From Auricularia sp. M13 (lineage: Eukaryota; Basidiomycota; Agaricomycetes; Auriculariales; Auriculariaceae), in assembly GCA_037042915.1 (NCBI GenBank), contig CM073196.1:1302001-1366000 (forward strand): DNA of 64,000 nt, in the 5' to 3' direction. The translations under genes were made by a program, and so were the position numbers. Each line of letters begins with the position of its first letter. Positions within the stretch are counted from its first letter, which is position 1. The notes under the pieces were generated by a model. It saw only the letters and a program-made list of their open reading frames with translations, was not told the DNA's origin and made no database searches. Below are positions 6,591 to 62,494 of the stretch, piece by piece.

Positions 6591-7965
6591 ATTGAGCTTA
6601 CCTGGGGATTGCGGGCGCGCGATGACGGGCAGAGGACCTGTGGGCAGGGCAATCCGTTGTCGGTGGCGATTGTATAACACTGTGCCGGAAGTACGAACAC
6701 GCTGGACGGCGAACACGGCTGAACGGAGCCTACCTGAGCATCGTGGGCCGCGGCGACGAGCAGAGTACGGCGAAGGCATTCCATAGTCGGCGGCCATTAT
6801 ATGCTACTGTGCGGGGGATCTGAGCGTGCGGGACGGCAAGCGCGGCTGAATAGAGCTCACCTGAGGATATCGGCCGTGGCGACGAGCAGAATGCGGCGGG
6901 CGCACAATACGGCGCCCAGCGAGATTGGATGCCACTGCGCGTGAAATGTAAGCGCGACGACGACGAGCGGCTGAATAGAGCTCACCTGAGCATTGCAGGC
7001 CGCTGCGACGAGCAAAATCGCGGGCGCAATTGAATGCCACTGCGCATGAAATGTGAGCGCGCGTGACGCGAGCGCGGCTGAATAGAGCTCACCTGAGCAT
7101 CGCGGGCGCGGGCGACGAGCAGAGTACGGCGAAGGCATTCCATAGTCGGCGGCCATTATATGCTACTGTGCGGGGGATCTGAGCGTGCGGGACGGCAAGC
7201 GCGGCTGAATAGAGCTCACCTGAGGATATCGGCCGCGGGCGACGAGCAGAATGCGGCGGGCGACAATACTGGCGCCCAGCGAGATTGGATGCCACTGCTC
7301 GTGGAATGTGAGCGCGCGTGACGACGAGCGCGGCTGAATAGAGCTCACCTGAGCATTGCAGGCCGCTGCGACGAGCAAAATAGCGGGCGCAATTGTATGC
7401 CACTGTGCGTGAAATGTGAGCGTGCGCGACGCGAGCGCGGCTCAATAGAGCTCACCTGAGCATCGCGGGCGCGGCGACGAGCAGAGTACGGCGGACAATG
7501 CAATCCGCGGACCGCGGCAACGCCACGCTACAGCGCGGGCGATGTGAGCGTGACATGCGGCGAGCACGAGCGGATAGAGCTTACCTGAGCATTGCGGGCC
7601 GCGACGACGAGCAGAATAGTGCGGGCGAACAATGCGGCGCCCGGCGAGTTTGTGTGCCACTGCTCGTGGAATGTGAGCGTGTGACGACGAGCGCGGCTGA
7701 ATGGAGCTCACCCGGGCATCGCGGGCCGCGGCGACGAGCAGAGTACGGCGGACGATGCAATCCTTTGAACGCACGACTGTATGCTACAGCACGCGAAATA
7801 TGAGCACGCTGGACGGCGAACGCTGAACGGAGCTTACCTGAGCATCGTGGGCCGCGGCGACGAGCAGAGTATGGCGGAGAAGGCATTCCATCGTCGGCGG
7901 CGATTGTATGCCACTGCGCGTGGAATGTCAGCGCGGGACGACGGGCGCGGCTGAACTGAGCTCAC
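6590..7965 (-). repeat. Tandem array B, left copy (about 12 units, minus sense)
   Basis: Read on the minus strand, units of about 105-131 bp repeat from 7965 down to about 6600. Each starts with a GTGAGCTC or GTAAGCTC motif (a 5' splice-site-like sequence), then has CGCTCACATT and a CAG about 54 nt later. About 73-75 nt follow that end CGCGATGCTCAG, just before the next GTGAG. Boundary motifs fall near 7965, 7838, 7707, 7580, 7450, 7343, 7215, 7085, 6980, 6855, 6727 and 6600. The last two units are mosaics of other units. Unit lengths are not multiples of three, so a continuous repeat protein is unlikely. Confidence 0.85.
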
Positions 7966-8575
7966 GCAGGCACCGCTGCTCTCGCGCTGGCCGTAAGTCT
8001 TTCGGGGCACGCCGTCATCGCGCTCCGAGCGCCGGTGGGCAGACTCCCGCCGCTTCACGTCGGTCGCCGATACTGCCCGCTTGATGATGCGCGATCCACG
8101 CTGAAAGCCCGCACCGTGGCGCAAGTAGACGTGGACCTGCTGGATCGAGCTCCTGCGGGGCAACGGGATAGGCCTCGACATCCAGAGCCATCGTGGTCGG
8201 CAGCGGCGAATCGTTATCTGGGGAAATAAACGCCGCGCTGGTCGTGTGGGTCGTCGAGGGGCGCGAAATAGCTGTCGTGCAAGTCGTGGGCGAGGTCGTC
8301 AAGAGCGCTTTCAAGGAAAGGACGCAGGCAGCAGTGATCAGGACAGATGGCCAGTGAAGCATCCAGCCGTGAATAGAGCTGCAGGATACTGCGGAGTAGG
8401 CATCGCAGCGGGCCTATGGCCGCCGCTGACGGTCGCGACTTCGCCCAGTTCTTGGCGCGCTCGCAAATGCGTCGGTGTAGGTAGCCGCTTCTTCGTGCAG
8501 ACCGTCCTAGCCAGCCTGTGCACAGCCGGCAATAACGGCCGCACTCGCGCTCCCAATGTGAATGTCCGCGGGCTG
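6740..8575 (-). repeat. Left arm of a large inverted repeat
   Basis: This segment is the near-identical reverse complement of about 17130-18965. Translated blocks of more than 60 and more than 110 codons are identical between the arms, for example minus-strand 8015-8362 against plus-strand 17336-17683. The differences I see are small indels, such as one base near 7997 against 17696 and a six-base insertion near 8555. Homology stops at about 8575, where the two flanks diverge. The loop between the arms is about 8.55 kb. Confidence 0.85.
7966..8191 (-). pseudogene. Histidine acid phosphatase-like N-terminal fragment, left arm
   Basis: Mirror copy of the fragment at 17507-17729. One frame gives ALDVEAYPVAPQEL. 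After a one-base shift another frame gives QQVHVYLRHGAGF. Members of histidine phosphatase clade 2 have a YPVAP..L..EQVHVY.RHGERTPVGVR segment at this place, with the catalytic RHGxRxP. Here the residues after RHG are altered and the frame is broken, so it cannot encode an active enzyme. The fragment runs straight into the first unit of array B. Assignment rests on this single short motif and is moderate. Confidence 0.45.
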
Positions 8576-17129: not shown

Positions 17130-18965
17130 AGCCCACGGACATTGGGAGCGCGAGTGCGGCCGTTATTGCCGGCTGTGCACAGGCTGGCTAGGACGGTCTG
17201 CACGAAGAAGCGGCTACCTACACCGACGCATTTGCGAGCGCGCCAAGAACTGGGCGAAGTCGCGACCGTCAGCGGCGGCCATAGGCCCGCTGCGATGCCT
17301 ACTCCGCAGTATCCTGCAGCTCTATTCACGGCTGGATGCTTCACTGGCCATCTGTCCTGATCACTGCTGCCTGCGTCCTTTCCTTGAAAGCGCTCTTGAC
17401 GACCTCGCCCACGACTTGCACGACAGCTATTTCGCGCCCCTCGACGACCCACACGACCAGCGCGGCGTTTATTTCCCCAGATAACGATTCGCCGCTGCCG
17501 ACCACGATGGCTCTGGATGTCGAGGCCTATCCCGTTGCCCCGCAGGAGCTCGATCCAGCAGGTCCACGTCTACTTGCGCCACGGTGCGGGCTTTCAGCGT
17601 GGATCGCGCATCATCAAGCGGGCAGTATCGGCGACCGACGTGAAGCGGCGGGAGTCTGCCCACCGGCGCTCGGAGCGCGATGACGGCGTGCCCGAAAGAC
17701 TTACGGCCAGCGAGAGCAGCGGTGCCTGCGTGAGCTCAGTTCAGCCGCGCCCGTCGTCCCGCGCGCTGACATTCCACGCGCAGTGGCATACAATCGCCGC
17801 CGACGATGGAATGCCTTCTCCGCCATACTCTGCTCGTCGCCGCGGCCCACGATGCTCAGGTAAGCTCCGTTCAGCCGTGTTCGCCGTCCAGCGTGCTCAT
17901 ATTTCGCGTGCTGTAGCATACAGTCGTGCGTTCAAAGGATTGCATCGTCCGCCGTACTCTGCTCGTCGCCGCGGCCCGCGATGCCCGGGTGAGCTCCATT
18001 CAGCCGCGCTCGTCGTCACACGCGCTCACATTCCACGAGCAGTGGCACACAAACTCGCCGGGCGCCGCATTGTTCGCCCGCACTATTCTGCTCGTCGTCG
18101 CGGCCCGCAATGCTCAGGTAAGCTCTATCCGCTCGTGCTCGCCGCATGTCACGCTCACATCGCCCGCGCTGTAGCGTGGCGTTGCCGCGGTCCGCGGATT
18201 GCATTGTCCGCCGTACTCTGCTCGTCGCCGCGGCCCGCGATGCTCAGGTGAGCTCTATTGAGCCGCGCTCGTCGTCGCGCACGCTCACATTTCACGCACA
18301 GTGGCATACAATTGCGCCCGCTATTTTGCTCGTCGCAGCGGCCTGCAATGCTCAGGTGAGCTCTATTCAGCCGCGCTCGTCGTCACGCGCGCTCACATTC
18401 CACGAGCAGTGGCATCCAATCTCGCTGGGCGCCGTATTGTGCGCCCGCCGCATTCTGCTCGTCGCCACGGCCGATATCCTCAGGTGAGCTCTATTCAGCC
18501 GCGCTTGCCGTCCCGCACGCTCAGATCCCCCGCACAGTAGCATATAATGGCCGCCGACTATGGAATGCCTTCGCCGTACTCTGCTCGTCGCCGCGGCCCG
18601 CGATGCTCAGGTGAGCTCTATTCAGCCGCGCTCGTCGTCACGCGCGCTCACATTTCATGCGCAGTGGCATTCAATTGCGCCCGCGATTTTGCTCGTCGCA
18701 GCGGCCTGCAATGCTCAGGTGAGCTCTATTCAGCCGCGCTCGTCGTCGCGCGCGCTTACATTTCACGCGCAGTGGCATCCAATCTCGCTGGGCGCCGTAT
18801 TGTGCGCCCGCCGCATTCTGCTCGTCGCCACGGCCGATATCCTCAGGTGAGCTCTATTCAGCCGCGCTTGCCGTCCCGCACGCTCAGATCCCCCGCACAG
18901 TAGCATATAATGGCCGCCGACTATGGAATGCCTTCGCCGTACTCTGCTCGTCGCCGCGGCCCGCG
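17130..18965 (+). repeat. Right arm of the large inverted repeat
   Basis: Near-identical reverse complement of about 6740-8575. The inner part (17130-17506) carries open frames on both strands that are identical in both arms. One on the plus strand (about 17113-17484) is Cys/Trp-rich at the start and ends DDPHDQRGVYFPR. I recognise none of these. The arm continues through the phosphatase-like fragment and about ten units of array B. The right array extends further (to about 20.0 kb) than the left. Confidence 0.85.
17507..17729 (+). pseudogene. Histidine acid phosphatase-like N-terminal fragment, right arm
   Basis: ATG at 17507 opens ALDVEAYPVAPQEL. The homologous continuation, QQVHVYLRHGAGF, lies in another frame. 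Family members have EQVHVYxRHGERTPVG here, RHGxRxP being the catalytic loop whose His is phosphorylated. A third frame near 17680-17715 reads TACPKDLRPARAAV, which could be the decayed segment after the loop. The fragment ends at the GTGAG of the first array B unit, at a place where a phosphatase intron could have started. It is non-functional as it stands. Confidence 0.45.
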
Positions 18966-20010
18966 ATGCCCGGGTGAGCTCTATTGAGCCGCGCTCGTCG
19001 TCGCGCACGCTCACATTTCACGCGCAGTGGCATTCAATCTCGCCCGGCGCTTCATTGTTCGCCCGCACTGTTCTGCTCGTCGCCGCGGCCGATATCCTCA
19101 GGTAAGCCCTATTCGGCTGCGCTTGCCGTCCCGCATGCTCAGGTCCCCCGCACAGTAGCATATAATGGCCGCGGATGGTGGAATACCTTTCCCGCCGTAC
19201 TCTGCTCGTCGTCGCGGCCCGCGATGCTCAGGTGAGCTCTATTCAGCCGTGCTCGTCGTCGCGCGCGCTCACATTTCACGCGCAGTGGCACACAATCTCG
19301 CCGGGCGCCGCATTTTTCGCCCGCAGTATTCTGCTCGTCGCCGCGGCCCGCAATACTCTGGTAAGCTCTATCTGCTCGTGCTCGCCGCATGTCACGCTCA
19401 CATCGCCCGCGCTGTAGCGTGGCGTTGCCGCGGTCCGTGGATTGCATTTCCCGGCGCATTCTGCTCGTCGCCGCGGCCGATCCTCCGGTAAGATCTATTC
19501 AGCCGCGGTCGTTGTCCCGCACGCTCACGTTCCACGTGCAGCAGCATACATTTGCGGCGTTCAAAGGATTGCGTTGCCTGCCGCATTCTGCTCGTCGCCG
19601 CGCGCCCGCGATGCCTAGGTTAGCCCTATCCGCTCGTGCTCGCCGTATGTCACGCTCACATCGCCCGCGCTGTAGTGTGGCGTTGCCGCGGTCCACGGAT
19701 TGCGTTGCACGCCGCATTCTACTCGGCGTCGCGGCCGAGACCCTCAGTTAAGCTCTATTCAGCCGCGCTCATCGTCCCGCGCGCTCACATCCCTCGTACA
19801 ATAGTATACAATCGCGGCATTCAAAGGATTGTGTTGCCCGCAGTACTCTGCCCATCATCGCGCGCTATGTGAGCTCCCTTGTGTCTTACTCCCTGTCCAT
19901 CACGCTCATGCTTCTGTGCGACAGCATCCACGCACTGCTGATGCTGAATTCCGCTGTCCAGTCTCCTCAACTCGTCGCCTCGCACCCGCAGTGTCGGATA
20001 AGCTCCATTC
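17730..20010 (+). repeat. Tandem array B, right copy (about 19 units, plus sense)
   Basis: GTGAG/GTAAG unit boundaries lie at about 17730, 17858, 17989, 18118, 18248, 18356, 18484, 18611, 18719, 18846, 18974, 19102, 19232, 19361 and 19488, then diverge to about 19996. Most spacings are 127-131 bp, with two short units of 108 bp. Each unit has a 54-nt intron-like part (GTGAGCTCTATTCAGCCGCG... ending GCAG) and a 73-75-nt part ending in CTGCTCGTCGCCGCGGCC...CTCAG. Outer units (after 19.6 kb) are more diverged, as expected at the edge of an array kept uniform by recombination. Confidence 0.85.
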
Positions 20011-46286: not shown

Positions 46287-47833
46287 ATGTCTGGCAGTGG
46301 CAAGGCGTCCAAGTCGGCGCCGGCGCTGCCTTCGTTCCCGGTCCCAGAGCGCCATGAGCCCGCCGTCGACGACCTCATGGGCCCGCTGGCGCGCCTGAAG
46401 CTCGCGGGCTACCCGACTGGCGGCTTTGTGGGCGGCTTCTCGAGGCCGCCGTCGTCCGTGGCGAGCTCGAGCGCTGGTTCTGGTCCTGGGCGCAACAAAC
46501 CACTGCCTCCGCCGCCGCCGCCCATGCCCATGCCGCGACCAGTGTCCCTCCCAGCCGGGCTGAGCTCGACGTATGGCACCCTGGTACCTATGCCCCCAGT
46601 GCCGGTGCCGCCTAGGATGTACCTGCCCCAGCCTCCGCCGCCATCGGCTGTCGAAGTCTTGCTCCAGCAGCCCTTTCCAGACAACTGGAAGCCCCTCTCA
46701 CACTCCGCGCCGTCGACGACCGCCACAACACCGGCGCCTAAGACGCCACAACGGCGCCGAAGCTCGTCCAGTACCACTGCGAGTGGCCTGGCTGTTCCCG
46801 CTCCAGTTCCAGCAAGAGCGACCTCAGCTCCTCCAGCTGCTTCGCCCGATGTATCTCAGTGCAGCGGTGTCACCAAGCAGGGCAAGCGCTGCGGGAACAA
46901 AGTCAAGGCCAGCTTGCCCCTTACATACATAGACGGCGCGCCAGAGGAACTGGAGCGATACTGTCATGTTCATCTCAAGGAGACCTTGGATCCTTCAGGC
47001 TTCTACTCGCGCAAGAAGAAGTCTGCTTGGATCAGCTTCGACGGTGCGAACTCTTAGATGTTTGCCAATGCGCAATCTGACTGTTCGTCAGACTATATAC
47101 CGGCCTGGCTTTCTCCAGAAACGAAGGCTGCCTTGCGCGCGGAGATGGTGAAAGCTGCTTCGCCCTCGGATTCGGATGGGTACATCTATACCTTCGAGCT
47201 GCGACGTACGGACCATTCTCGGATCCCTCGACATTACACTCATACTGTTCTAGAGCCAGCGCTCTCGTCAGACGTCCATCTCAAAGTGGGTCGGACGAAC
47301 AACGTTACTCGTCGGCTGCACGAATGGGGCAAGCAATGTGGCAAGGAAGTTGTGCCACGCGGTCTCTGGCCTGCCCCTGAGGACGACGGTGCAAGCATGC
47401 TCATTGGGATGATACGACCCGGGCCGCCTGGTCCTTTCGTGGGCCGTTTGGAGCGCCTTATCCACCTCGAACTGGCAGACCTGGCAGTGAAGGCGCCGTA
47501 TCTCCCAGCCGACCAACGACCCAAGTTGCCCACGCGTCCACAGGCCAGAAGGAGCAGCTCGGATGACATGGGCACAAAGAAAACCGTGACCTCTCCTGGC
47601 CGACCTCCTCGTCCTTATGTACCCTGCGCGTGTGAGTTGCAAGCTATACTTTTATCACCGACGCTCTACTGACGCCTCATCTTACAGGCGGAACTCTGCA
47701 CAAGGAGATTTTCGTGCTTCCCCGCGCCAAGTCCGGCAAATACAAGGACCACATCTGGGAGGACCTCGTTAAGGGTGTTATCGTACGCTGGGGTCAATTC
47801 GTGAATGACCATGTCGCGCTGGCTCAACCGTGA
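46287..47833 (+). CDS. T5orf172 (DUF1766, GIY-YIG-related) domain protein
   Basis: Three exons: 46287-47043, 47092-47631 and 47688-47833, with 48- and 56-nt introns in phase. Residues 1-200 are proline/serine-rich (PPPPPPMPMP, VPMPPVPVPP). Then comes a Cys/His cluster, CSGVTKQGKRCGNKV with YCHVHLKE, a likely zinc site. The T5orf172 domain follows: GYIYTFELRR, HLKVGRTNNVTRRLHEWGKQ and LERLIHLELAD. The YIYTF..KVGRT order is the GIY-YIG-like core. The third exon adds CGTLHKEIFVLPRAK and WGQFVNDHV. Domain members include fission yeast Mug113; their activity is unproven, although nuclease relatedness is likely. The ATG at 46287 fits better than an upstream one because the sequence before it is unlike the family. 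Confidence 0.8.
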
Positions 47834-48015: not shown

Positions 48016-48410
48016 ATGCTCGCTATGCTCAGAGCTGACCAGCTAGTCGCAGTGGCAGCTGCTGGAGCTTGCATCCTTAGTCTGTGGAGTCTTATCGTGC
48101 GCAGACGCAGGTTACCACACCCTCCAGGCCCGCCTGAACGCCCAATTCTCGGCATCGATCCCAAACTCCTCCCAACGTCGGAACCGTGGAAGCTCTATGC
48201 GCAATGGTCGAAACTGTATGGTAAGCAATGCGAAGAGATCAAGTTGCTAAACATTTGCGTTGTGCGAACTGAGCCGCTTTGGCGGCCTCTCAGGTCCCAT
48301 AATTTCTTTCCATATCCTAGGCCGTCGCGTTATCGTCCTCAACTCCTTTGCGACAATGACCGCACTCCTCAGCAAGCGCGCATCGGTATACTCAGAACGA
48401 CCCTTGCGGA
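48016..48410 (+). pseudogene. Cytochrome P450, 5' part, cut by insertion
   Basis: Exon 1 (48016-48220) encodes an N-terminal membrane anchor (LVAVAAAGACILSLWSLIV), basic residues and the LPHPPGPP hinge of microsomal P450s. After an intron (48221-48293) exon 2 continues with GPIISFHILGRRVIVLNSFA and stops being P450-like exactly after SERPLR at 48410. The same bases recur at 60792-60807, where the P450 resumes in the same phase. Without the insertion the two parts would form one gene about 180 bp downstream of the T5orf172 gene. As it stands the frame runs into the element and stops near 48491. Confidence 0.9.
48395..48410. repeat. Target-site duplication, left copy
   Basis: GAACGACCCTTGCGGA, identical to 60792-60807. 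It lies inside P450 exon 2. The preceding A (48394) also matches, but that base cannot be told from the element's poly(A). Confidence 0.9.
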
Positions 48411-50900
48411 GGACGGCTTTCTCCCGAACCACAATGTTCGGTCTGCTACACCAGGCGAAAGCACACCCACGTCCCCCGCCGTCAGATGAATAAAGAACGC
48501 GCAGGCGCTGCCTGTGGAATATGACGTTTTTTTTTCCTCCAAAAAAAAGAGGAAATGTCTTTTACTACGAAAATGAAGCTCATGAGCACCGTAACGACAA
48601 GAGCGAGCTCGGTCAACGCAATCGCGGCCAATGTAAATGCATAAACGACGCTCCACGCGCGGTGCAGAGCGTGAGCGCTGCCTACAAGTACAGGCTCGAA
48701 CAGCGGCGCAGTAGTATCCACGCGCGAGTAATGGCGCGGCGCGCATGAGCCGCCACGTCCACCAGCACCCGTCGCTCCAAGGGGCAGAAGGACAAGCCGG
48801 GCCTCAGAGCCTTGAAGCACACGAGTTTTTTTTCTTCCTTTTGAACAATTCGTGCGATTTTCTTAGGGCCTAGCGCCCTTTCCAAAGTGTACATCGAGTA
48901 AAATCAGCCGCAAGAAACGACACGCGCTCCAGTTCGTAGATTCCTACAGAGCAAGATAAGTAGAGCCTGGCACTGCAGATAGCGAGCGACGCGTACCGTG
49001 TTTTATTGAACAAAAAGCCTGCAACGCGTCAGCAAGTCGAGGGCGAGCAGTAAGCGGGGATAACGCACCTAAGCAACGGCGGAGATTACGCAAGAAGCCG
49101 AGGCGCCGCCGGAAGACCCGCCGGAGCCGGCACCGCCAGGCCCATGGGACGTGCAATGCAAGCAGGCGCACTCTGCGTCGTGGAAGATCGAGAGGACGTA
49201 GTCGAGCGCGCAGCCGCGGCAGAGGCCACCGAAGAGGAAGACGGCGACGAGACGCGCGTACTGGGCGCTGTCAACGACGACGAGCAGCAAACTGGAATAA
49301 AACGCACCTCTTTGCAGATCGCGCATGGGCAGTCGTCAGGCCGTGCTCCAGGCGTGGAGCAATGATCGGAGCCGCAGTCCTGGACGCGCTGGACGAGGCC
49401 GAGGCCGACGACGCGGCGCTGCAGGAGGTGAGCAACAGGCTTCGCGATGAACGAGTACACAGACGCACCTTGCAGAGGGAGCATAGGGACCTGCTGAGCA
49501 GGGGTGAGCAGAGAACGAGCGGGGCAGACGACAGACTCACTTGTCGTTGCCGCACATGCTGGGAGTGGGAAGAGAGAGTCTGGGGAGGCCGGGAAAATCC
49601 GGCACGTCCACATCCAGTCGGGACCGTCTGCCTCCGGCCTCGACGCCCTTCACGCCTCGCCGTCGCGGATCGAGTCAGACCTGACACGTTGCCGCGCCTG
49701 TAGCTTGCAACCCAAAGTTCGGTGAAGTATAACCCAAAGTCGAGTGTGAAATATCTGCAAGTTTTGTCCATGTGGCCACGAAGGCGAGCAGATGCGCGTG
49801 GCTAGATAAGATAACGCCGATCATAGATTAAACACGGCGATCCCCCCCTGCACGACGTAAACAAACAAACCCGGCTAGCCAGAAGGCCACGAGACAGGCG
49901 GATCCTCCCGAAAAGGACCGATCGCAGACCCGTGACGTCAGAGCACGGAAATGATTATCAAAGTCCATGTGCGCAAGGAGCTGCAGGAGCATCAGAAAGC
50001 GGAAGTGCCAGACATCGACTCCGGGAGGTCAAATTGAGCAGCCTTAGGCGTACCCCCTGAACGCCTGAGCGGTTCGGATACATGAGGCCCACGGCACAGA
50101 TAACACAGCCATCTCGGGCAAGGGATCGGAACGACCAAGCATAGAGCTGAAACCCAGGAGCGCTGAATAGACCCAATGCACCTATGCAACGCAATTACAC
50201 ACACAAGGAACAGGAAGTCAGCACGAGTATCGGCGTAAGGCACGAATCTGAAGGCCTGCTGTCTGGAGACACAGCGACTCTCCCAAGTTGACACCGCTGT
50301 GCTAGCGCATGCGAAACCAGTCCGCAAGCAACGTAACAAAATTCAGCGCTCCCAATCGTCCAAGCAAGCGGAAATCGAGCGCCAGTACTGGATTGAGAAG
50401 TACGCAGCGGTAGAGCTGTAGGGGAGAAAGCAGAACGCCGCGACTCTTCTGTCTGGAGCACGTCGCGCATCTATGCACACGGAACACAGGCGGACCAGTG
50501 GACAAGACTCACAGGGCACTAGCTCTTCTGTCTGGAGTACGTTGCGCCCAGGAGTAATCAAGGGCGCAAATTGAGCACCTAACGGGGGCCCTGCGCATCA
50601 ATATCGGATCAGTACGTGGCAAATATGAGCATCCAGATACCTGACCTAATGATCGTGACACTACGAGAATGACCACGCCAGTGCGGAACAGACCGGAAAT
50701 TCCTTTTCCCCCTTCTCTATAGTCTTAGATCACCTGAGCCCCCCAATGCTAGTCGGGAAGGATCAGCTGAACATACCAGCGCACCGGGAATAGGACACGC
50801 AGGCCAACGCTACATCCAGCACCCCGTTGCGGGCACAACGAAATGAGACATAGCGAAGGGCTGACGAAACCTGTGACCGGCGCGCCGGGAAAAGGCGAAA
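48411..50900. other. 5' region of the insertion, with gene-like minus-strand segments
   Basis: On the minus strand, 49770-48480 has several short open segments separated by splice-like GTGAGT/GTGCGT...CAG stretches. One is cysteine-rich (DCGSDHCSTPGARPDDCPCA, then ICKE, about 49430-49320). Another is hydrophobic with cysteines (QYARLVAVFLFGGLCRGCAL, then FHDAECACLHC, about 49270-49140). A third is a membrane helix (FTLAAIALTELALVVTVLMS, about 48640-48580). A T-run (48527-48536) and an A-run (48541-48548) lie close to the left edge. This might be a captured host gene, an older nested insertion or just 5' UTR. No family was recognised. Confidence 0.35.
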
Positions 50901-50989
50901 ATAACGCCCAGAGATCGTCGCGAAGCCAGTAGCTGTATAAGAGTGGCGTAGGCCTCAAGGACTGTCTTCCAACTCCCCCCACCAACCAG

Positions 50990-51764
50990 ATGGGGTCCCT
51001 AGAAGTCCTCCCCCGCCCAGCGCCCGAGCTGAAATGGTGGTCGCCATCACCGCCCTCAGAAACTGAGGACATACAGACGCCGCCAAAACAGATGCCCATA
51101 GAGCAGGGCGGTCACAGCGCAGAGGAACCACGGACCCCACGCAAGCAGTGGACGAGCAGCGAGAGGATCGCAGCCGAAGGCCTGGCAGCCATGCGAAGGG
51201 CACCGGGAGGAGGTGAAGTGATCGAAACTCCGAACAGACTCCGATGCTAACTGAGGATGCGCCTCCCAACGAATCAACACAGATAACCGCAAGTCATCAC
51301 TCAGTCAATGCACGCGAGAAATTATCCCAGAAAACGCGACCGCAGTTAAAAACGCGGATACTGCGCCGCAAACAGTAGAACGTCGAGACAAGGACTCCAA
51401 AGCGACCGGAAAGTCCGCAAAGAAGAAGATTCGCCGTGGTGGCCCGAGACCACGCTCGGAGAACCTCGATTTAGTCGCCACTGCGCCGGACGAGGTCCTC
51501 GAGAGAGCCAAGGTGTGGCTGAACATGGGCGGTCGTCAACAAAGATGCGAGTGCTTTGGCCCATGCCGGACGACATTCAGCAAACGAGACGCCAGAGAAC
51601 GTCACTGGGCGCAATTCCCAGGATGTGAGGAGGAGCACGTCAAAGCCATCCAAGGAACGATATACGTGGCAGACTACCAGGAGATGCAGAGCATCAGAAG
51701 GAAGCGAAGAGCGAAAACTGAGGCCGGAAAAGGTCCACAATTCTTCAATATATTTGCACCTTGA
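50990..51764 (+). pseudogene. ORF0-like frame in the LINE 5' region, zinc-finger-like C-terminus
   Basis: Coding-like sequence in two or three overlapping frames. 50990-51250 (86 codons) is rich in Pro, Glu and Ser. From 51255 a second frame stays open to 51764 and ends with a basic stretch (KSAKKKIRRGGPRPRS) and a Cys/His module: CECFGPCRTTFSKRDARERH, then WAQFPGC and EEEH. The Cys/His spacing suggests a single zinc finger. I do not recognise it from known LINE ORF1 proteins. A frameshift near 51240-51260 separates the halves, so this copy looks broken. Confidence 0.45.
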
Positions 51765-52550
51765 CCTGTGTCATGTAAAGCCAACGTCGAAACAATTCTA
51801 GCATCGGGCGTAGTACGCGAAGATCGGGATAAGAGCGATAATCACGAGCACGGAGCTGCCACGCAGGCTCGACCGGCAATAGCAGCCTGAGCACCTCGCC
51901 AACCTGATTGGAGGTCCTCAGGCGCCCATGATGGCGCAGTTGTCAATGTGCACCGGTCTGTACAAGAACTAATAGGACCCCTTGGTAGGGAACGCGTCCC
52001 TAAGTAACGTACGATGCATCAATCTAAAAACAGGAAGTATAAGTCACGTTTGATATAGATGGGGCGGCTTGCAAAGGGTCTATCAGCATCACCGGAACGC
52101 TGGGGGCCCTCAAGTGTGTGCGTGGGAGCGGCGGGCGCTGGGAAAGATCACCGTCAGCTGTCTATGGAACTCCGACGAGCACAGCTTCCACCACCCAGCG
52201 CCTTTACAAGACACTGGCCGATCACAACGAGGGCTGACAACCAGCTGAAGGCGCTCCAACGTGCGGCCAGGCCCAATAACGGCTCAGCGCGAGTAGTTCA
52301 AAGGCTTGTGCGGTATAGAAGCCCTGACTTCCCCTTGCTCCACGTACATGCCAGCTCCAGAACACATCGCCAAGGGCACGCCAGGGGCTCAGCACACTCA
52401 ATGGTAGCAGTGACGCCCCTCACGAGCATAAGCCGCAGCTCAGGTGAACAGGATCGTCGAAGGTGGTCACCTACTTAAAAAGAAGCGCAGAGGTGCTCTG
52501 TTTCAACGCACTCACCCCATCGCAACCTCCCTCGGTGACACGGCCGACAA

Positions 52551-54740
52551 ATGGCCTTGGCTAGCACGCCCCTCGTCCCATACACAGAGGACGGCGACGA
52601 CCCCATCGCCTCGTACTCACCAGTGGCCCCGTCGCTGGACCTGCCGGCGGCCCCGACGCTCACATCAGACGGCTTCGTTCGCGAATGCGAGGAATTGCAG
52701 ACCACCTCAGGGATCCCCTTCCTCCCATCGTCGCCTGCCCTGGACCCGGACCAGCCTTTCACCGCGTCCCCGGCACGACCAGCGACCGTCCGAAAGGCGG
52801 ACGACGCAGCGACCCCGAGCGATAGGCGCCGCGACCTGGCCACATCGGAGGACAGGCGCGCCCGCCGTCGGGCGTCGATGGAGGCTCTAGAGGACACAGA
52901 GTGGCCTCCGCTCCGCGCGCCCGGCACGCAGGGCCCGCAGAATCGAAGCACGGGCGCTGTGAATGAGAGCCACATGGAAGAGACTGTGGGCCTCAAGGCC
53001 CCCATCCAGCAACCGGTGTTCAAACGCACGGATCGTCCCACGAATGCTGGGCGTCGCCCAGCACCAGTGGGCGCGGGCACGACGACGGGCAACGCACAAA
53101 GCGCCCCAACAGCGGCGCGCCCCATGTCATATGCACCGGCGCAGCGATCAGCGGCCTCGGCCACTCCAGCGGGTCGGGCGCAGGAAAAGAGGACGCACGA
53201 AGACGCCACCAACAAGGTATGCACGAGCACTCTGGAGAAAGAACAGCCTGCTTACTTAGTCAGGCAACGGTGGAAGATGTCTTCAGCGTCAAGTTGGAGA
53301 AGGTGGACGTCCCGCGACAGTCCTGAACAGGACGTACGAGCTCATGGACAACGACCAGCTCCGGGAGACAACGAGTGACCAGGCGCATAGCTCCCGCGAG
53401 ATGCAGTGTGGGCGCGAGCGGCCGCAACTGCGAGGCGCCTGTCGGAACGAGAATCCGCGCTGCCCGCGGCAGGGAGATACGCGGTGCGCACCACAGAGGC
53501 CTCCCAAGTCCCGAGCGGCGTAGGAAATGGCGCACACGACGACGGGCCCGCAGCACAGCCCCAGGACGATGGGATGGACGTAGACGCATTCGACGACGAG
53601 GCCTATCACCGCTCCCTGAACCTCCCGTCAGCGCAGCACGTGCCGAGGTTCACGCTGGACCTGGACGACGAGCTAGAATACGCCAGCACGCACGAAGAGG
53701 CTCAGGAGGACGACGACGGGTCGCAAGAACTCCATGGCGCATTCGCAGAACGAACGGTCCACGTCGCGGCGAACCTCGACAACCACCCGCTGGATGGCAT
53801 GGAGCAAAATGGGCACCTCGCGAACATGTTGCCGACCCAATTCCAGGCGTGGGATGCGCACGTTGGTTACAAGGCGGTCTTCATCTGCGACGACTTAGAC
53901 GGCACTGACCCGGAGAACATGAACCCGGTGGCCGCCATAATGAAACTAACGCGTCAGTTCCAGGGCGCATGGCCTGGAAGCTCGCCAGAAGTCTCACGAG
54001 CGGAGCCGGACCCCAACAGCGCTGCGCGCGTTCGGAAGAACACCTTCCTGATCAAGAACATCTCGAGCGAGCAGGAGGAGGCACTAACACACCGTCGCCA
54101 CTACATCATAGGCTGCGCCAAGATTACAACGTTCCCCTTCAAGCTGACGGTCTCTCCCTTCATGGGGACGGTCCCGGCGACGGTTCTTGACGGCGAGCAA
54201 GTACGACGACGGGTAGTAGAACGCTGGGCCGAAGAACCGTCGGTCATCACGATTTTCGACAAGTACGGCCCCACCCTGTCCCTCTTTCCCTGGCTGACAG
54301 ACTCCAGGCACGTGCGCTACAAGTTCTCAACGGAACAGATGCGAGCGCGTTTCTTCAAGAAGCTGACAGTGGTGCCAATGGTGACCAAGACCTTCGGAGA
54401 AGCGGTCACGGAGTACAACATTTACGCCCCAGCGCCATTCCTATCCCCGGCGCTGCATCGGGAGCTTCGCGCAGCGCTGAAAAAGGTGCTCATAGTCGAC
54501 AACTTCGCGGGGGTCATTGCCCTGCGTGATCCCGACTGGGGATGCACTGCGTGCCCAAGCCGCGGCCACCCGCGCGGCCTGTGCAAGACGCACGAAGTCG
54601 CTGGATGGCACCCGCCTGCACCACCGGTGCCCTCGCAGCAAACACAAGTCGCGACGTCCTCCAGGAACCAGCCATACAACGCTGGTCGCGGAATGCGAGG
54701 CGGCCGAGGACGGGGCAGAGGACGCGGACGCGGACTCTGA
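52551..54740 (+). pseudogene. LINE ORF1 (gag-like nucleic-acid-binding protein), frameshifted
   Basis: ATG 52551 opens a Pro/Thr/Arg-rich disordered region to about 53215. Between about 53215 and 53405 the reading moves through at least two other frames (for example DVFSVKLEKVDVP, then NRTYELMDNDQLRETTSDQ) before returning to the first frame for the rest. The C-terminal part (53406-54740) has an acidic stretch (DDGMDVDAFDDEAY), a folded domain of about 250 residues and a canonical CCHC zinc knuckle C-x2-C-x4-H-x4-C at 54543-54584 (CTACPSRGHPRGLC). It ends in an RG-repeat tail (GRGMRGGRGRGRGRGRG). Such proteins coat the element RNA. A spliced intron starting GTATGC at about 53216 could remove part of the disturbed region but does not restore a single frame. 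Confidence 0.8.
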
Positions 54741-55242
54741 CCGCACGCGTGAAACGGCTGCTACGCCCACGCCCCTTACGCGCCATCTCCCACCCCAGCC
54801 CCCCAAAACGAACGCGCCAAAGTGCGAATATCCCCAATGCCGTCGCTTTAACTACTCTCGAGCAACTTCTTGACTAGACGCCCAAAGTAGAGTAACAATA
54901 TCGTTCCCCTCGATGCACGTCGCCCAACTAGAGCTTCCTACAAAATAGATGAATATTCTTGACGTGATCAGAGTCAGCGGCATCTAACCGGAGATGCTGG
55001 AAAGGAGTGTAGCGCGGACCTTGGGAAAAAACCGCGTAAGCCGAAGGACCCTATATACTGACTGCACTTGTGGCGGGACAGGAAGGTTCTGAGGCTGGGT
55101 GGAAACGGCGGTCTATTTAGACCTCGGATGTGCCGTGCGGAGACGCTGAAGCCGAGGAGAAACTTTCAGGGTCCGGACCCTGATAGAAGTATCTGACAGC
55201 ATAATCCGCCGCGTCGGCCGGATTGCCGACTATGCTACGCGG

Positions 55243-58200
55243 GTGCGCTGGCCCGCGGAAGCGAAGCACGCAGCGCAACCAAGCACAACCTCTAAAACTC
55301 TCTCAACGGTGACGACTGACTGGCAGGACTACACGCCCTCTGACGTTGGAGCCTGGCACGGTACGCCCGCCGACGCTGACGGCAAGGAAGGCGCAGAGGT
55401 TTCGGGCGTTTCTCGAAGGGGCCCAGGGGAGGCCCCATGTACCAGAATACAGAGCACACCAGCTCGTCCCCAGCAGGCAGCGACGCCGACAACCAGCCCG
55501 ATGACGCCACCATCATGGCGCTCGGTGCGACACACACCATCTAGCCCGCGCCCGACGGGCCCACAGACACCACTAAACCGCATCAATGGGCTGAGATCCC
55601 AAACATCACCGCTATCGGGCCCAATCTCTATGCAGGTATCGCCGCAACAGGCCAGCTCGCCAAGGATACCTGACAAGACGGAGGGCCAACGCGCGTCCAA
55701 AAAGAACACCAGAGCGTATATTAAACTCGCGTCCGAGAACATGCGGGGACGCGGGGCAGCATCTGTAGCCGGCAGCCTCAAGTGGAGAAAGCTAGCGGAC
55801 GACATAAGGAGGTCAAAGATAGGGATTATGGCTGTCCAAGAGACACACCTTTCTGACGACCACCTGAACGAGATCAGCATCTTCTACGACCACCTGCACG
55901 TCGAGAACACGGCCTCCCCTGACAACCCCACGGGGGCGGGTGGGGTGGCAATCATCTTTAACAAGAATCTGACGAACCATAAGTCAGTGGAATCGCATGT
56001 GCTCGTTCCCGGGCGTGCAATACTCACCACGATGGTATGGCATCGCGAGGAGCGCCTCACAGTCCTGGCAGTCTACGCGCCCACAAACCCGAAGGAGAAC
56101 TACGATTTCTGGGGGATAGTTCGACGGCAGCTACGCCGCAGGCCCAGATCATTCCCAAAGCCAGACGCCTTGCTGGGGGATTTCAATTTCGTCGAAGACC
56201 CGGTAGACCGATTCCCAGCACGGACGTCAAAGATAGATGCACCGGGGTCTTTCGACACCCTCAGGGCATACCTCGGCGTAGTGGACGGATGGCGAGACAC
56301 CTTTCCCCAAAAAGTAGAGTGGACGTGGCGAAATCCCGCGCAGTCAGCGATGTCTCGCCTAGACCGTATATACCTGAGTCGGGCACTGCTGAAAGGAAGC
56401 AGAAACTGGGGAATCGACTTGTCCAACCTGACGGTTAATGACCACAGCAGAGTGAGGGTGGAGCTCACGAACCTGGACGCTCCCGAACTCGGTCCAGGCA
56501 GATGGACAATGAAAGACTCGCTAACGAGAGATGGCCTGTTTATGAATAGAGTGAACAAGCTGGGCAAACAGGCACAGATGGAGATAGGAGTACTCACGGA
56601 GAACGGCAGGTCCGCAGATAACAACCCCCAGGTCATCTGGGCGAATTTCAAAAACAGTGTTATCAAATGTGCACGCCAGCGCAGCCGGGAAATAGGCTGC
56701 ATGCGAGACAACTTACGATCGAAGGCCCAAGCGAAACGAGAGCTCGCCGTGGAAGCCTTGACGTCCGCAACCTTACACGAGGAGGTCGAGGCCGCCAGAA
56801 CACGCCTACGGGAGGCAGAGGAGGAGGTACACAGACTCCAGGATGAAGCACACGACCGCTTTTCAAACATCGCAACGCGCGCGTGGGCAATCGGAGAAAC
56901 CATGCACAAGGGCTGGTTCAACTGGGCGAAGGAGAGCCGGCAAAAGGATACAATCTCTCACCTGCAGAGACCGGATACCTTCCCGCCAGTGTACACCCAC
57001 GACTCAAAAGGAATGGCGAAACTAGCGGGCGAATATCACGAAAGCGTACAAGCCAAAGATCTGGACGCACCCGAAATGGAGCGCGAAACCGCAATAAATC
57101 GAGTCCTGGGCTTTGTCCAGAGCGACCGGGATTCAATCATTGAGTCCGACCTCGACGACACGATAACAGAGACCGATGTCGAAGAATCCCTTCTCGCGTC
57201 CAAGAACGGCTCAGCGGCGGGCACGGATGGCCTCATATATGAGCTGTGGAAATCCCTACACAAATTCCACTGCATGACCAGGCAGCGGGACGAGCCATGG
57301 TTCAACATAGTGAGCGTGCTGACGGCAGTGTACCGGGACATAGAGGAATACGGCCTGACCCAAGGCTCGGCATTCACAGACGGGTGGCTCTGCCCACTCT
57401 ACAAAAAGGGTGAGAGATGTAAAATAGAGAATTATCGGCCTATCACCTTGCTGAATACGGACTACAAAATCTACACCAAAGCCTTGGCCCTGAAACTTGC
57501 ACGAATAGCCCCACGGCTCATCCATGTATCGCAAGCCGGCTTTGTGAAGGGGCGAAGTATAGCAGACCATACCAAAATCTCGACGCTGATCCTGCACTAC
57601 ACCGAAGCGATGGAAGAAGACGGCGCGATCATTGCGCTTGATCAGGAGAAGGCATACGATCGCATTCGACATGACTACTTACACAGAGTACTTGAAGCAT
57701 TCGGCTTTCCCAACAAATTTGTGCGAGTGATCCGCACACTCTATGACAACGCATACACGTCGGTGATGTTGAACGGTTTCCTGAGCCCGAGGTACCGAGT
57801 AACGCGTGGAGTGCGCCAAGGAGACCCACTATCGTGCCTTCTCTTCAACCTGGCAATAGAGCCGTTGTCGGCAATGCTGAGAGAATCGCCGCTGCGAGGT
57901 TTTGCGATACCAGGCCTACAAAAGAAATTAATCGCAACACTATATGCGGACGATACAACGGTGTACCTGGGTAAATCAGACTCATACCGGGACCTACTCG
58001 ATATCCTGGACTGTTGGTGCCTCGCCGCGGGAGCCCGCTTTAACATCTCCAAAACGGAAATCATTCCGCTTGGATCAGAAGGCTACAGGGCAAGCCTCAT
58101 CGCGACCAGATGCCTGAATGAACATGATGAGCCAATCCCAGACGGTATACGAATCGCACGCGACGGTGAGCCAACACGCATCCTCGGAACATGGCCCGGG

Positions 58201-60586
58201 AACGGCGTCGAGAGCGCGAATGTCTGGTCAGTGACGATGGCGAAGATACAAGACCAACTGACCAGATGGGAAAGGAAAAACCCAACGCTGAACGGCAGGA
58301 GCATCCTCTCACAAGTCATATGCGGCGGACACACGCAGTTCCTGACGGCGGCGCAAGGTATGCCACGTCAGATTGAGAAAAAGCTCGACAAAATGGTGCT
58401 CGGTTTCTTCTGGGGAGACACGAGGAGACACCCGATAAACATGACCACCCTGCGCAACCCCAAGAGCATTGGCGGGATGAGCCTCTTCCACGCCGAGAGC
58501 CGGAATGAAGCTCAATATATCTCCTGGCTGCGCGCATTTCTGTCACCGCATGCCACAAGACCGATCTGGTGTTTTATGGCTGACCAGATCTTCCGGAAAG
58601 CCATCTCAAGCAAAGATGCAAGGAGGATCCCACAGCCAGCGCGCATAGACCCCTTCCAACAAGACTGGCGCCCAAGCTCGAAGAAGCTACCATTCATGCT
58701 GCGTCAGCTGGTGCGGGTAGCAGACAAATACCAGCTGTGCATGGACGCACCGCAGGTGTCGGCCAATGTCAGAAATGGAGCGCCGATCTGGGGACACCCG
58801 GCCCTTATGAACGACTTGGCCCTGCGAGGTAAACGCCCGAGAATAAGGTGCCTAAAGACCGCGCACGCAGTGGTAACTGTGGAGGACCTGGAGGAGCTAG
58901 GCGAACAAGACGACCCAGAGCACGAAGAGAACTCGGCGTGCGGGTGTGAGAACTGTTCCGCAGACAGACAGGAAGGATGTGCCAAGCCGCACAGATGCCA
59001 GGCGCTGGCCAGAGACATAATAGCAGATCTTGCGCCGAAATGGAATCCGACGACGGCCTGCCTCGAGCCGGCCAGAGACCTCTGGAACGCCTTTGAGGAC
59101 CAACGGCAAACGGCAATCGCAGACGGCGAACCCATCATCTTCGACGCGTCATTGGACATGGGGGACGAGCCATCAACCTACTTTAGGATGTTCACAGGCT
59201 CAGTTGGCCTCGTGCCGAGACCCGCGGAGGTACTCAGACGCTACGAGGCAGCAGAGCGTGAGTACGGCACCCAGGACGACTCGCCGGTACAGGTAGCTTT
59301 GGGAGCGGCAATGTACAATGCGAACTCCTCGACGATGCGAGGGGGCTGCACGGCGTACTTCCCCGACGGGGACGCCGTAGACTTCGCCGGTAGGGGATCA
59401 GGCGAATCACACTCGTATATGCGAAGCCTAGCCGTGGCGCTCTACATGGCAGTCCGCGCGGCACCAGCGCACAGACCGCTGCATGTAATCACGACGCACA
59501 AGCAGCTGGTCGAAGTGATGACAACAAGGCTGTCCTACCACGAAGACTGTGGATGGATGGACATGCCGGCAGAGGCGGATGCACTCCGCGCAGCGGCGTC
59601 AGCTCTGCGTGAACGCTCCGCAGAAACCTCGTTCACCTTCATCAGCAAGTCCCGGGCAAAAGGCTGGCCCCAACTAGTGGATGCCCGCAAAATGGCGGTA
59701 GTCGCAGCAGAACTCGGCCCGGACCACGAAATTGACCTAGCAGCATCCGTGGCATTTGACAAGCCGGGCATCGCACTGCACAGTCTGAACCAGCGCTTGG
59801 CACACAGAGCCATTCGGTATACGGTGGCCACGACATCGCCGAAAAGGCGAACCACCGTTGATAACATTCGCACAGTACAGCAGAGTGTGAAGCGGGAGTG
59901 TGGCTTCACACCCACGTCCGCGCAGATTTGGGACGGCCTGAAGTCCAGAGACCTATCCAGAGCAGCGAAACTTCCTGTGGAAGAGCCTACACGGGGCGCA
60001 CAAAGTCGGTGCATACTTTGCTAAGATGCCTGAACCCTGGAGGAGCTACAGTATGTGCCCTAGCTGCAAGGTCGAAGAATCCTTGGAACACATCCTCTTT
60101 GCGTGCCCAGACTCCGGGCAACAGGTCGTGTGGCCGATGGTTAAGAAGCTCATGGAGCACAAGCGAGTAACGATTGCACTGGATATCGGCCTCGTCCTTG
60201 GCTGCGCAGTTGCGAGGTTCCCTGGCATAGGATCGGACCGCTGCAAACCGACGGAGAGGCTGTTCAGAATAATGGTGTCCGAATCGGCCTTCCTGATCTG
60301 GAAAGTAAGGTGTGAGACGCGTGTTGGCCACGCGGAGGATCCCGAATGGAAACTCCCCCTCGCAGACGTGATCAAGCGCTGGGACTGCATGCGTAAGCTG
60401 CGTGTATCACAAGACAGACTCATGTCGAACCATAAGCGCTTCAAAGATGCATACATTAGCCGCTGGCTGGTCAAGGACACATGGTCCAACCTGCTGGACG
60501 AAAGGACATTCGCAATTGGGAGAAATACCCGGCGAACCGGAGTTTTAGTGGGTACGGGAGGTGCCAACCCTGCAGGCATTGGCTAG
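55243..60586 (+). pseudogene. LINE ORF2: endonuclease, reverse transcriptase, RNase H-like, zinc finger; one frameshift
   Basis: Numbering from 55243 (a GTG; the frame is also open upstream). Residues about 160-390 are an apurinic-type endonuclease (MAVQETHLS, LGDFNFVEDP, SRLDRIYLS, NDHSRV). Residues about 640-930 are the reverse transcriptase: YRPITLLNTDYKIYTKALA, ALDQEKAYDRI, TRGVRQGDPLSCLLFNLA and YADD at 901-904. Residues about 1350-1540 have an RNase H-like fold whose catalytic acids are mostly replaced. The first frame ends at 60022-60024, but the natural continuation (FLWKSLHGAHKVGAYFAKMP) begins in the next frame near 59970. It ends in a zinc-binding module CPSCKVEESLEHILFAC and a basic C-terminus at 60586. 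A one-base insertion near 59960-59970 explains the break. Confidence 0.9.
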
Positions 60587-60591
60587 ACCTC

Positions 60592-60757
60592 CAAGCCCCA
60601 CACTGTCCCATCAGGGCGTGCTAACGGCTATTTCTCCGGTTGGAGCAATTTCCTTCTTTCTTCCCCCTCCCGACGGCACCTGCCGTCCGTCCAAGCTCCC
60701 ACTCGTGGGATAGGCGATGATTTAGGTCACTATGTGATTGTGAACTCCCTAATGCTC

Positions 60758-60758
<1 letters not shown>
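60592..60758 (+). other. LINE 3' UTR with two perfect hairpins
   Basis: GACGGCA-CC-TGCCGTC at 60672-60687 and TCCCAC-TC-GTGGGA at 60697-60710 are perfect inverted repeats with two-base loops, spaced nine bases apart and about 50 bp before the poly(A). Such 3' structures can be the site where the element's own reverse transcriptase recognises its RNA. Confidence 0.7.

Positions 60759-60791
<33 letters not shown>
60759..60791 (+). other. Poly(A) tail of the LINE
   Basis: Uninterrupted run of A at the 3' junction, directly followed by the right target-site duplication. The last A could belong to the duplicated host sequence. Confidence 0.95.
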
Positions 60792-60795
<4 letters not shown>

Positions 60796-60807
60796 GACCC
60801 TTGCGGA
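60792..60807. repeat. Target-site duplication, right copy
   Basis: GAACGACCCTTGCGGA, identical to 48395-48410 and in the same P450 reading phase. Confidence 0.9.
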
Positions 60808-62494
60808 CGATGTACGACGTTGTCATGGGCCAGCGGATCGGGGTCTTCAACATCCCTGCCTCGGATGACAGGCACAGGATTTATCGAAAGCTCTTGAACG
60901 GGACGCTGAACGCACGGGCGGTGCAGGCTTATCATCCTGTGCTAGAAGAGGAATGCCGGGTATTCCTCAGGAGACTGCTTGACGCACCGGAGGAATTTGA
61001 GATGCATATTCGCCAGTGCGTTCAACGCCGTTCGAGTCGGACAGTTTACTTATGCAACTCGCTGTAGAACATCTGCGGCGACTATCATGCGTATAACTTA
61101 TGGCTACCATGTCCAGGAGAATGATCCATTTGTATCGATGCTCGCGGATACGTTCAGGGTGGCTAGTCTCGGCGCTGCACCTGGCAAGTGGCTGGTAGAC
61201 GTGGTCCCCATACGTATGCTTGTCGCCTCCCATCTGCCCTGATTCTGACCGTAAATCTCCTCACAGTGAGATTCCTCCCGAGCTGGATGCCCGGTGCCTC
61301 CTTCAAGCGTCAGGGCAAGATCTGGCAGAAGCAAATAGCCGAGCTAGTTGCAGCTCCGTTTGACTGGACGAAAGCGCAGATGGTGCGTACATCAGTTATT
61401 CGGAATCGTCTTTCGCAGAAGCTGTGGCCAATTATGCTCATAACCGTAGGCCGAAGGTACAGAGGAGCATTCCTATGTTTCACATCACGTTCGCGAAGCC
61501 CTGGTCGACGAGACGCATATCCAGAAGAGCGCGGCTGCTCTCTATATCGGCGGCGCTGATACAGTAAGTGGTAGCCCATCTCGTTAAACTCTTTTCTGAT
61601 TGACTTGTGAAAGGTGGTGTCCGCGCTGACGACATTCCTTCTGGCGATGACACTTTGGCCGGACATTCAGCGAAAGGCACAAGCTGAGATTGATGCTGTA
61701 ATAGGCCGTGGTCGTCTACCCAAGTGTCAGGATATGGACTCTCTGCCGTATTTGCGTTGCATTTTGCAGGAAATATTGCGTTGGGCACCAGTTGCACCTG
61801 TCGGTGAGAGGCAACAAAATTTCACAGCAGCCTGTAATACTAACTTCCCTCCAGGTCTTCCCCATTCCCCGCTGAACGACGATGAGTTTGAGGGATTCTA
61901 TATTCAGAAGGGCGCCTCGATCTTCGCGAATCTATGGTACGGGTTTGCGGGTTTCGTACCCTGCGCGCCACATCTCATCGAGTTGACCAGGGCAGTGTTT
62001 CACGACCCCGACGTCTATCCCGACCCCGAAACATTTGACCCTGACCGCTTCGCGGCACCATCTCTGCAGGCTGAAACGTTGCCACCGAATCCACTGGAAT
62101 TTGCGTTTGGCTTTGGCAAGGTACGCGGAATGTCAACGCCGTGCTCTCAACTGATAGCTATGCTGCCTTCCAGAGGATCTGCCCCGGCAAGTGTAGACAT
62201 ACATGAGACATCGTCGCGGATGCTCATATTTCTTAAATAGGGCTGCACTTCGCAGAATGCTCAATCATGCTGAACATGGCTTCGGTTCTCAGCGTGTTCA
62301 ACATTTCGAAAGCTCGTAATCCGGATGGCGGACTCATTGAGCCCATCATTGAGTTTACTACTGGCATAACGAGGTCTGTGCATTCAGCCTTAGGAATCCA
62401 ACTTTCCAGAGGTTGACCGTTTCACAGCCATGTCAAACCGTTTGTCTGTGAAATCCGGCCGCGATCAGCAGAGGCTGCTCTGTTGATCCAGTAG
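60792..62494 (+). pseudogene. Cytochrome P450, 3' part, separated by insertion
   Basis: Resumes at ERPLRTMYDVVMGQRIGVFN and runs to a stop at 62492-62494 through at least eight introns. Landmarks: MRITYGYHVQENDPFVSMLA; the I-helix AALYIGGADT with VVSALTTFLLAM (oxygen-binding groove AGADT type); the K-helix LQEILRWAPV (ExxR); the PERF-like FDPDRF; and the heme loop FAFGFGK, then RICPG, split by two introns, with the Cys being the heme ligand. The intron after ICPG (62187-62240) begins GCAAGT, a GC-AG intron. The final exon gives SHVKPFVCEIRPRS. I see no stop or frameshift in the conserved parts, so the gene seems to have been intact when the element inserted. Its substrate is unknown. Confidence 0.88.

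Follow-up and report, generated by a model that had tools for sequence, protein, structure and literature searches.

A long interspersed nuclear element (LINE) of about 12.38 kb, present at full length and encoding an apurinic-type (APE-type) endonuclease, has almost certainly entered exon 2 of a cytochrome P450 gene of the mushroom Auricularia sp. M13, presumably by target-primed reverse transcription, duplicated 16 bp of its target, and presumably inactivated the gene in this haplotype. The gene lies in the window analyzed here, a stretch of 64,000 nucleotides with a GC content of 57.6% (GenBank assembly GCA_037042915.1, contig CM073196.1, positions 1,302,001 to 1,366,000 of the forward strand; positions below count from the first nucleotide of the window). 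As a LINE mutation of a P450 gene this event is ordinary, and it is the element itself that is unusual. We read it as belonging to a LINE lineage in this genome that combines a zinc-finger-like open reading frame (ORF), for which we coin the name ORF0, with a CCHC-bearing ORF1, an ORF2 for endonuclease and reverse transcriptase (RT), a structured 5′ RNA, and a length of about 10.4 to 12.4 kb.

The P450 coding sequence breaks after the residues SERPLR at position 48409 and resumes in phase at 60807, as the sequence-only reading of this DNA had proposed. The join given there, 48410 to 60808, is equivalent to ours, given that the 17th base next to the duplication (A) matches either side and is ambiguous. 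The same reading had described a perfect 16-bp duplication and an insert ending in 33 A's, and we found exactly these: identical 16-bp copies at 48394-48409 and 60791-60806, and a pure A run at 60759-60791 whose last A possibly belongs to the duplication. In a listing of repeats with a minimum length of 16, this duplication is the longest direct repeat pair linking both insert ends, and nothing resembling a long terminal repeat (LTR) was listed at those ends besides it. That 16 bp should match by coincidence precisely where an element with a poly-A tail starts and stops is not credible.

Searches of the assembly (52.1 Mb in 14 contigs, one genome) returned one near-identical further match for each of the 3′ and 5′ ends of the insert, both on contig C7 and 39 kb apart. 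These matches belong to another copy of the complete element (98.7% identity over 7,209 aligned positions and 99.2% over 5,193), which is broken up by a 27-kb element. The C7 copy begins at the same GGACGG, preceded by a few extra G, and has its own, different duplication of 10 to 13 bp. The earlier claim of a single 12.4-kb LINE insertion is therefore upheld by the duplication, by the poly-A tail, and by the existence of another full-length copy that has a duplication of its own.

When the two parts of the P450 gene are joined, they encode 107 + 399 = 506 amino acids that are collinear across the join with five relatives (503 to 505 amino acids). The downstream part consists of ten exon pieces, all open to the stop at 62494, and Pfam matched PF00067 (P450) in the piece that was tested (61611-62140). 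In the alignment with the five relatives, the joined protein carries FGFGKRICPG, EILR, and GGADT, which we take to be the haem-binding FxxGxRxCxG, the ExxR, and the I-helix xGxDT motifs, respectively. Its nearest named relatives among the 120 proteins listed are P450s of Auricularia subglabra (70% identity) and Exidia glandulosa (57%). Because the best paralogue within the genome is only 55 to 62% identical, we examined near-invariant alignment columns instead of the synonymous divergence (dS), using the 103 of the 120 listed proteins that have 470 to 560 amino acids. None of the 45 near-invariant columns is changed in the split gene, compared with an average of 1.0 in the other sequences (n = 103), and 41% of these relatives also have no deviation. 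The split protein lacks three columns that more than 90% of the compared sequences fill. The intron at 62187-62240, which follows the CPG codons of the haem loop, is better modeled as GC-AG than as GT-AG, because a GT-AG intron would leave the protein with two extra residues that are absent from all five aligned relatives. Introns of the GC-AG type form a normal minor class, and this one, therefore, need not represent damage. The description of motifs and splice signals as undamaged on both sides thus holds for the motifs, the open frames, and the near-invariant columns, but one intron is not of the usual kind.

To what extent the insertion is recent can be gauged from the copy in the window (the C4 copy) and the C7 copy, which are separated by 14 indels, the tail and one indel at the position of the nested element included, and by 122 differing sites, of which 98 show transitions, 42 in CpG context. 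In ORF2, dS is 0.016 and the nonsynonymous divergence (dN) is 0.006. Since dN is lower than dS, much of the divergence arose in active lineages, and the insertion is younger than 1% implies. The roughly 1% divergence would, therefore, bound the age of the insertion from above. Substitution rates are of the order of 1e−9 to 1e−8 per site and year, and at these uncalibrated values the upper bound may be placed at about 0.5 to 5 million years. A neutral 1.5-kb gene would collect only some 7 to 15 changes by that bound and, as noted, many of the compared relatives show no deviation either; the intactness of the P450 gene is, therefore, weak evidence for dating. The earlier argument from an undamaged gene to a young insertion is compatible with our counts but does not date the event finely. 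That the insertion is young is nevertheless supported by the perfect duplication, the pure A tail, the roughly 1% divergence from the C7 copy, and the absence of visible decay in the P450 gene, in agreement with the sequence-only reading. The differences between the two copies are unevenly spread: positions 53400-54400 hold 30 of the 122, and the stretch 53391-54740 shows 28 synonymous and 5 nonsynonymous changes, with a dS of 0.087 versus 0.016 in ORF2. This pattern suggests that 53400-54400 is likely a patch acquired from another subfamily via recombination or template switching.

An old, fixed insertion, with a P450 relic that is intact by chance, is the alternative that survives best, although we consider it unlikely. 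Indels shift the frame of the C4 copy within ORF1 and again close to the end of ORF2, while the corresponding frames of the C7 copy are open (591 codons in ORF1; two parts of 153 and 1,660 codons in ORF2), so that the C4 copy is either defective or affected by small assembly errors. Neither these indels nor the GC-AG intron nor the unusual make-up of the element figured in the sequence-only reading. The indels are located at homopolymers or short repeats, and residual sequencing error is, therefore, possible. The locus may be polymorphic, with an empty site in other strains, as the sequence-only reading proposed, but the one assembly analyzed contains no empty allele, a 121-bp probe from the left flank giving a single match; these points, together with the limited dating value of the P450 gene, would suit an old event. 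On the other hand, a perfect duplication, a pure A tail, and the lack of change at any near-invariant P450 site speak against an old insertion, and the excess of dS over dN in ORF2 places much of even the 1% divergence before the insertion.

It is very improbable that the 12.4 kb represent a nest of at least two elements, in which a LINE of roughly 8 kb would sit within or next to an older sequence of 4 kb. Such a nest would account for a length that is large for a fungal LINE; for example, the Tad-like LINE-Tad-RtPc5 of Paracoccidioides has 5,905 bp and two ORFs of 572 and 1,312 amino acids (PMC4427930). However, the C7 copy starts at an identical 5′ end and has a 5′ region that is 98.7% identical throughout as well as its own duplication, and the 4 kb upstream of the usual LINE ORFs, therefore, belong to the element. 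DNA searches of the genome found the first 4 kb of the insert in full only at the C4 and C7 sites. In a related family on contig C6, an 11-bp duplication encloses 11,495 bp with the same 5′ RNA and ORF0, and ORF0 lies upstream of many other RT copies. A duplication of at least 10 bp was not found at the other three of the four related loci tried, two of which are interrupted by other sequence. We rejected the nested arrangement on account of the full-length C7 copy.

The 27-kb element within the C7 copy (G000:C7:1939277-1966287) is flanked by a 3-bp duplication (ACC) and has subterminal repeats of about 130 to 155 bp and an Ulp1-protease ORF. Three near-identical matches to its 624-bp left end occur elsewhere, on C6, C2, and C7, and one of these extends over just 514 bp. 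It is probably a young and very large DNA transposon.

There is similarly little room for a P450 gene that still functions, either with the LINE spliced out as an intron or from a downstream start. An open frame (60753-61067) does run from after the poly-A into the P450 gene, but the insert ends are not GT...AG, and a product of a downstream start would be without at least the first 107 residues, the membrane anchor included. P450 function would be lost in the haplotype carrying the insertion. Least probable of all is an assembly error at the joins: small homopolymer indels hint at leftover sequencing error in the insert, but a chimaera would not yield a 16-bp duplication exactly at LINE ends, and we rejected it because the independent C7 copy has both of the same ends.

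The insert has the features of an APE-type LINE: an RT with a YxDD motif (PF00078, E = 1.6e−33, residues 752 to 972; YADD at 57943), an apurinic-type endonuclease before it (PF03372, E = 1.6e−10, residues 214 to 418), a poly-A tail, copy-specific duplications, and no LTRs. In relatives on contigs C6 and C11, ORF2 is open over 1,797 and 1,817 codons, respectively. Pfam recognized no family in the ORF1 pieces, and an RNA recognition motif (RRM) was not detected there. Elements of the Tad1 clade are about 6 to 7 kb long. With about 12.4 kb and a conserved ORF0, the present element departs from the two ORFs and the size of that clade, although size is perhaps not a strict clade criterion. LINEs in general are usually described with one or two ORFs. 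A literature search by titles and abstracts, with Repbase and most subscription journals outside its reach, yielded no fungal LINE with three ORFs among the matches listed. LINE-Tad-RtPc5 resembles our element in having an ORF2 with endonuclease and RT, a separate ORF1, a poly-A tail, and no LTRs, whereas the length of about 12.4 kb, the third, upstream ORF, and the 5′ RNA fold set our element apart (PMC4427930). Type I ORF1 proteins of LINEs comprise an RRM followed by CCHC (PMC4120745). In two families here, the final third of ORF1 likewise contains a CCHC knuckle, while the RRM went undetected; ORF0 forms an ORF of its own, and its cysteines and histidines follow a different pattern. New LINE insertions of the Tad1 and Inkcap types, with variable 5′ ends, have been observed directly in monokaryons of Marasmius oreades; those insertions also occurred in a mushroom, but the copy described here is full length and comes from one assembly (PMC9674265).

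The genome contains 77 ORF0 matches, the insert's own included. When all of these were compared with the strongest 81 of 111 RT matches (the 30 weakest omitted), an ORF0 match was found on the same strand within 15 kb upstream in 50 of the 81. For comparison, there were 2 such cases downstream and 0 on the opposite strand, and the random control, for which the lengths of contigs C2 and C12 were guessed, gave a mean of 0.88 and a maximum of 4 in 200. The distance from ORF0 to RT ranges from 5.4 to 14.7 kb and is below 8 kb in 45 of the 50 cases. Linkage to ORF0 also differs with RT identity, as assessed in 70 of the 81 matches (11 fragments omitted; ORF0 flags transferred by hand): among those at least 61% identical to the RT of the insert, 46 of 56 have ORF0, in a further one (C7) ORF0 lies on the far side of the nested element, and nine are without it, compared with 0 of 14 among those below 61%. 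Nine of 13 ORF0 sequences (C7, C8, C1:5196, and one with an in-frame stop omitted) share C100, G102, C104, R114, H117, W118, C124, E125, H128, I132, G134, T135, and Y141, and this pattern of cysteines and histidines suggests a zinc-finger-like domain. Changes between families fall mostly on third positions, and dN/dS, where estimable, is 0.17 to 0.25, a rough value since dS exceeds 1 (12 of the 13 sequences, that with the in-frame stop omitted; only pairs with a nonsynonymous proportion, pN, below 0.30). The C4 and C7 copies of ORF0 differ by 3 nonsynonymous and 2 synonymous changes. ORF0 thus appears to be under purifying selection that is visible only between families. We speculate that its product might bind nucleic acid or help in the formation of the ribonucleoprotein.

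The first 64 nucleotides of the insert are predicted to form an outer helix, a second helix, and two inner hairpins, and the 5′ end of the C6 family folds in a similar way. A covariance model of this 5′ RNA, based on four sequences from three families, detected two further families (E = 1.6e−12; E = 3.5e−7 to 3.8e−7), with the new matches lying on the same strand 1.2 to 1.3 kb upstream of ORF0 matches. In an alignment of seven sequences, 91.4% of the cells pair and 8 of 20 pairs change on both sides; there are 15 compensatory cells, compared with 5.5 in shuffles, and none of the 500 shuffles reaches 15. The match between the C1 and C8 copies starts at the first G of the outer helix, and the fold, therefore, sits at the exact 5′ end. 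Measured from these 5′ RNA ends, the elements span an estimated 10.4 to 12.4 kb. Some LINEs, such as R2, carry ribozymes like that of hepatitis delta virus (HDV) at their 5′ ends. The present RNA is likewise structured and 5′ terminal, but its predicted helices are nested, according to a folding tool that cannot predict pseudoknots, and Rfam gave no HDV match up to an E value of 5, only two unrelated weak matches. The 5′ RNA might serve the element's RNA in defining its 5′ end, in translation, or in 5′-end joining, which is a guess on our part.

One sequence used to train the model, G000:C4:2978886-2978947, is a LINE 5′ end that resembles the insert's by 85% over 62 bp. It has no RT match within 15 kb, and a lone 5′ end is unusual for LINEs.

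These observations raise the possibility that giant LINEs of about 10.4 to 12.4 kb form a lineage not described so far, with the zinc-finger-like ORF0 as a third protein under purifying selection between families, a conserved branched RNA at the exact 5′ end that is possibly self-processing or involved in 5′ joining, and copies young enough to have disrupted a P450 gene. We regard the chances of this broader proposal as even, and several results weigh against it, as they do against the lineage reading given at the outset. ORF0 was not found upstream of 31 of the 81 RT matches, and for 25 of the 77 ORF0 matches the 15 kb downstream contain no RT match. The recent C8 and C1 copies differ across the whole of ORF0 by 5 nonsynonymous and 1 synonymous changes, without a sign of constraint, and in the insert's family the first methionine of ORF0 occurs only at residue 91. 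ORF0 has no credible match in Pfam or PDB; public proteins gave none at an E value of 0.001 among 31 candidates, and a search with nine members gave none at 0.01 among the 7,992 public-protein candidates listed. The fold of the insert's 5′ sequence by itself is unremarkable (z = −1.25; −2.43 for the C6 sequence). Among the 10 ORF0 loci outside the model, 3 had a 5′ RNA match and 7 did not, in a search of 20 sources in which the 5′ ends of those 7 may fall outside the searched stretch. The covariation alignment had itself been fitted to the structure, and the model was built from four of the seven sequences in it.

The insertion would serve as a clean presence/absence marker, both for the P450 gene and for recent activity of LINEs in a mushroom genome. 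A third, upstream ORF recurs together with a defined 5′ RNA across several LINE families of this genome, which would let one ask what additional protein and RNA are required for so long a LINE to be copied in full. If the broader proposal is true, copies of giant LINEs are recent enough to have knocked out a P450 gene in a group of mushrooms that includes cultivated species. The coordinates of the gene and of the element are listed in Table 1.

Table 1. Parts of the split P450 gene and of the inserted LINE, in window positions
Feature	Position	Strand	Basis or remark
P450 exon 1 (membrane anchor, PPGPP hinge)	48016..48220	+	
P450 exon 2, 5′ part, ending in SERPLR at the insertion	48294..48409	+	
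Target site duplication, left copy, 16 bp	48394..48409	+	
Full-length LINE insert, about 12.38 kb	48410..60790	+	Pfam domains, second copy
Structured 5′ RNA of the LINE (predicted outer helix, second helix, two inner hairpins)	48411..48474	+	
ORF0, putative zinc-finger-like domain at 51543-51689	51255..51764	+	Conservation in genome
ORF1 region, gag-like, CCHC knuckle at 54543-54584	52539..54740	+	Interrupted here, 591 open codons in C7
ORF2, endonuclease and RT	55150..60024	+	
ORF2 3′ end, other frame, weak zf-RVT match	59942..60586	+	20.6 bits, below the Pfam cut-off of 27.5
LINE poly-A tail, 33 A, last A possibly the duplication's	60759..60791	+	
Target site duplication, right copy, 16 bp	60791..60806	+	
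P450 remainder (second part of exon 2 plus nine more exons, frame open as far as the stop)	60807..62494	+	
P450 intron fitting as GC-AG, not GT-AG	62187..62240	+	Alignment with relatives

Directly upstream of the P450 gene, the window contains an ORF of the T5orf172/MUG113 type (47058-47672). Large tandem arrays, with periods near 108 to 129 and 363, occupy positions 6700-8000 and 17700-19800, and by eye the units of the two arrays look like mutual reverse complements.

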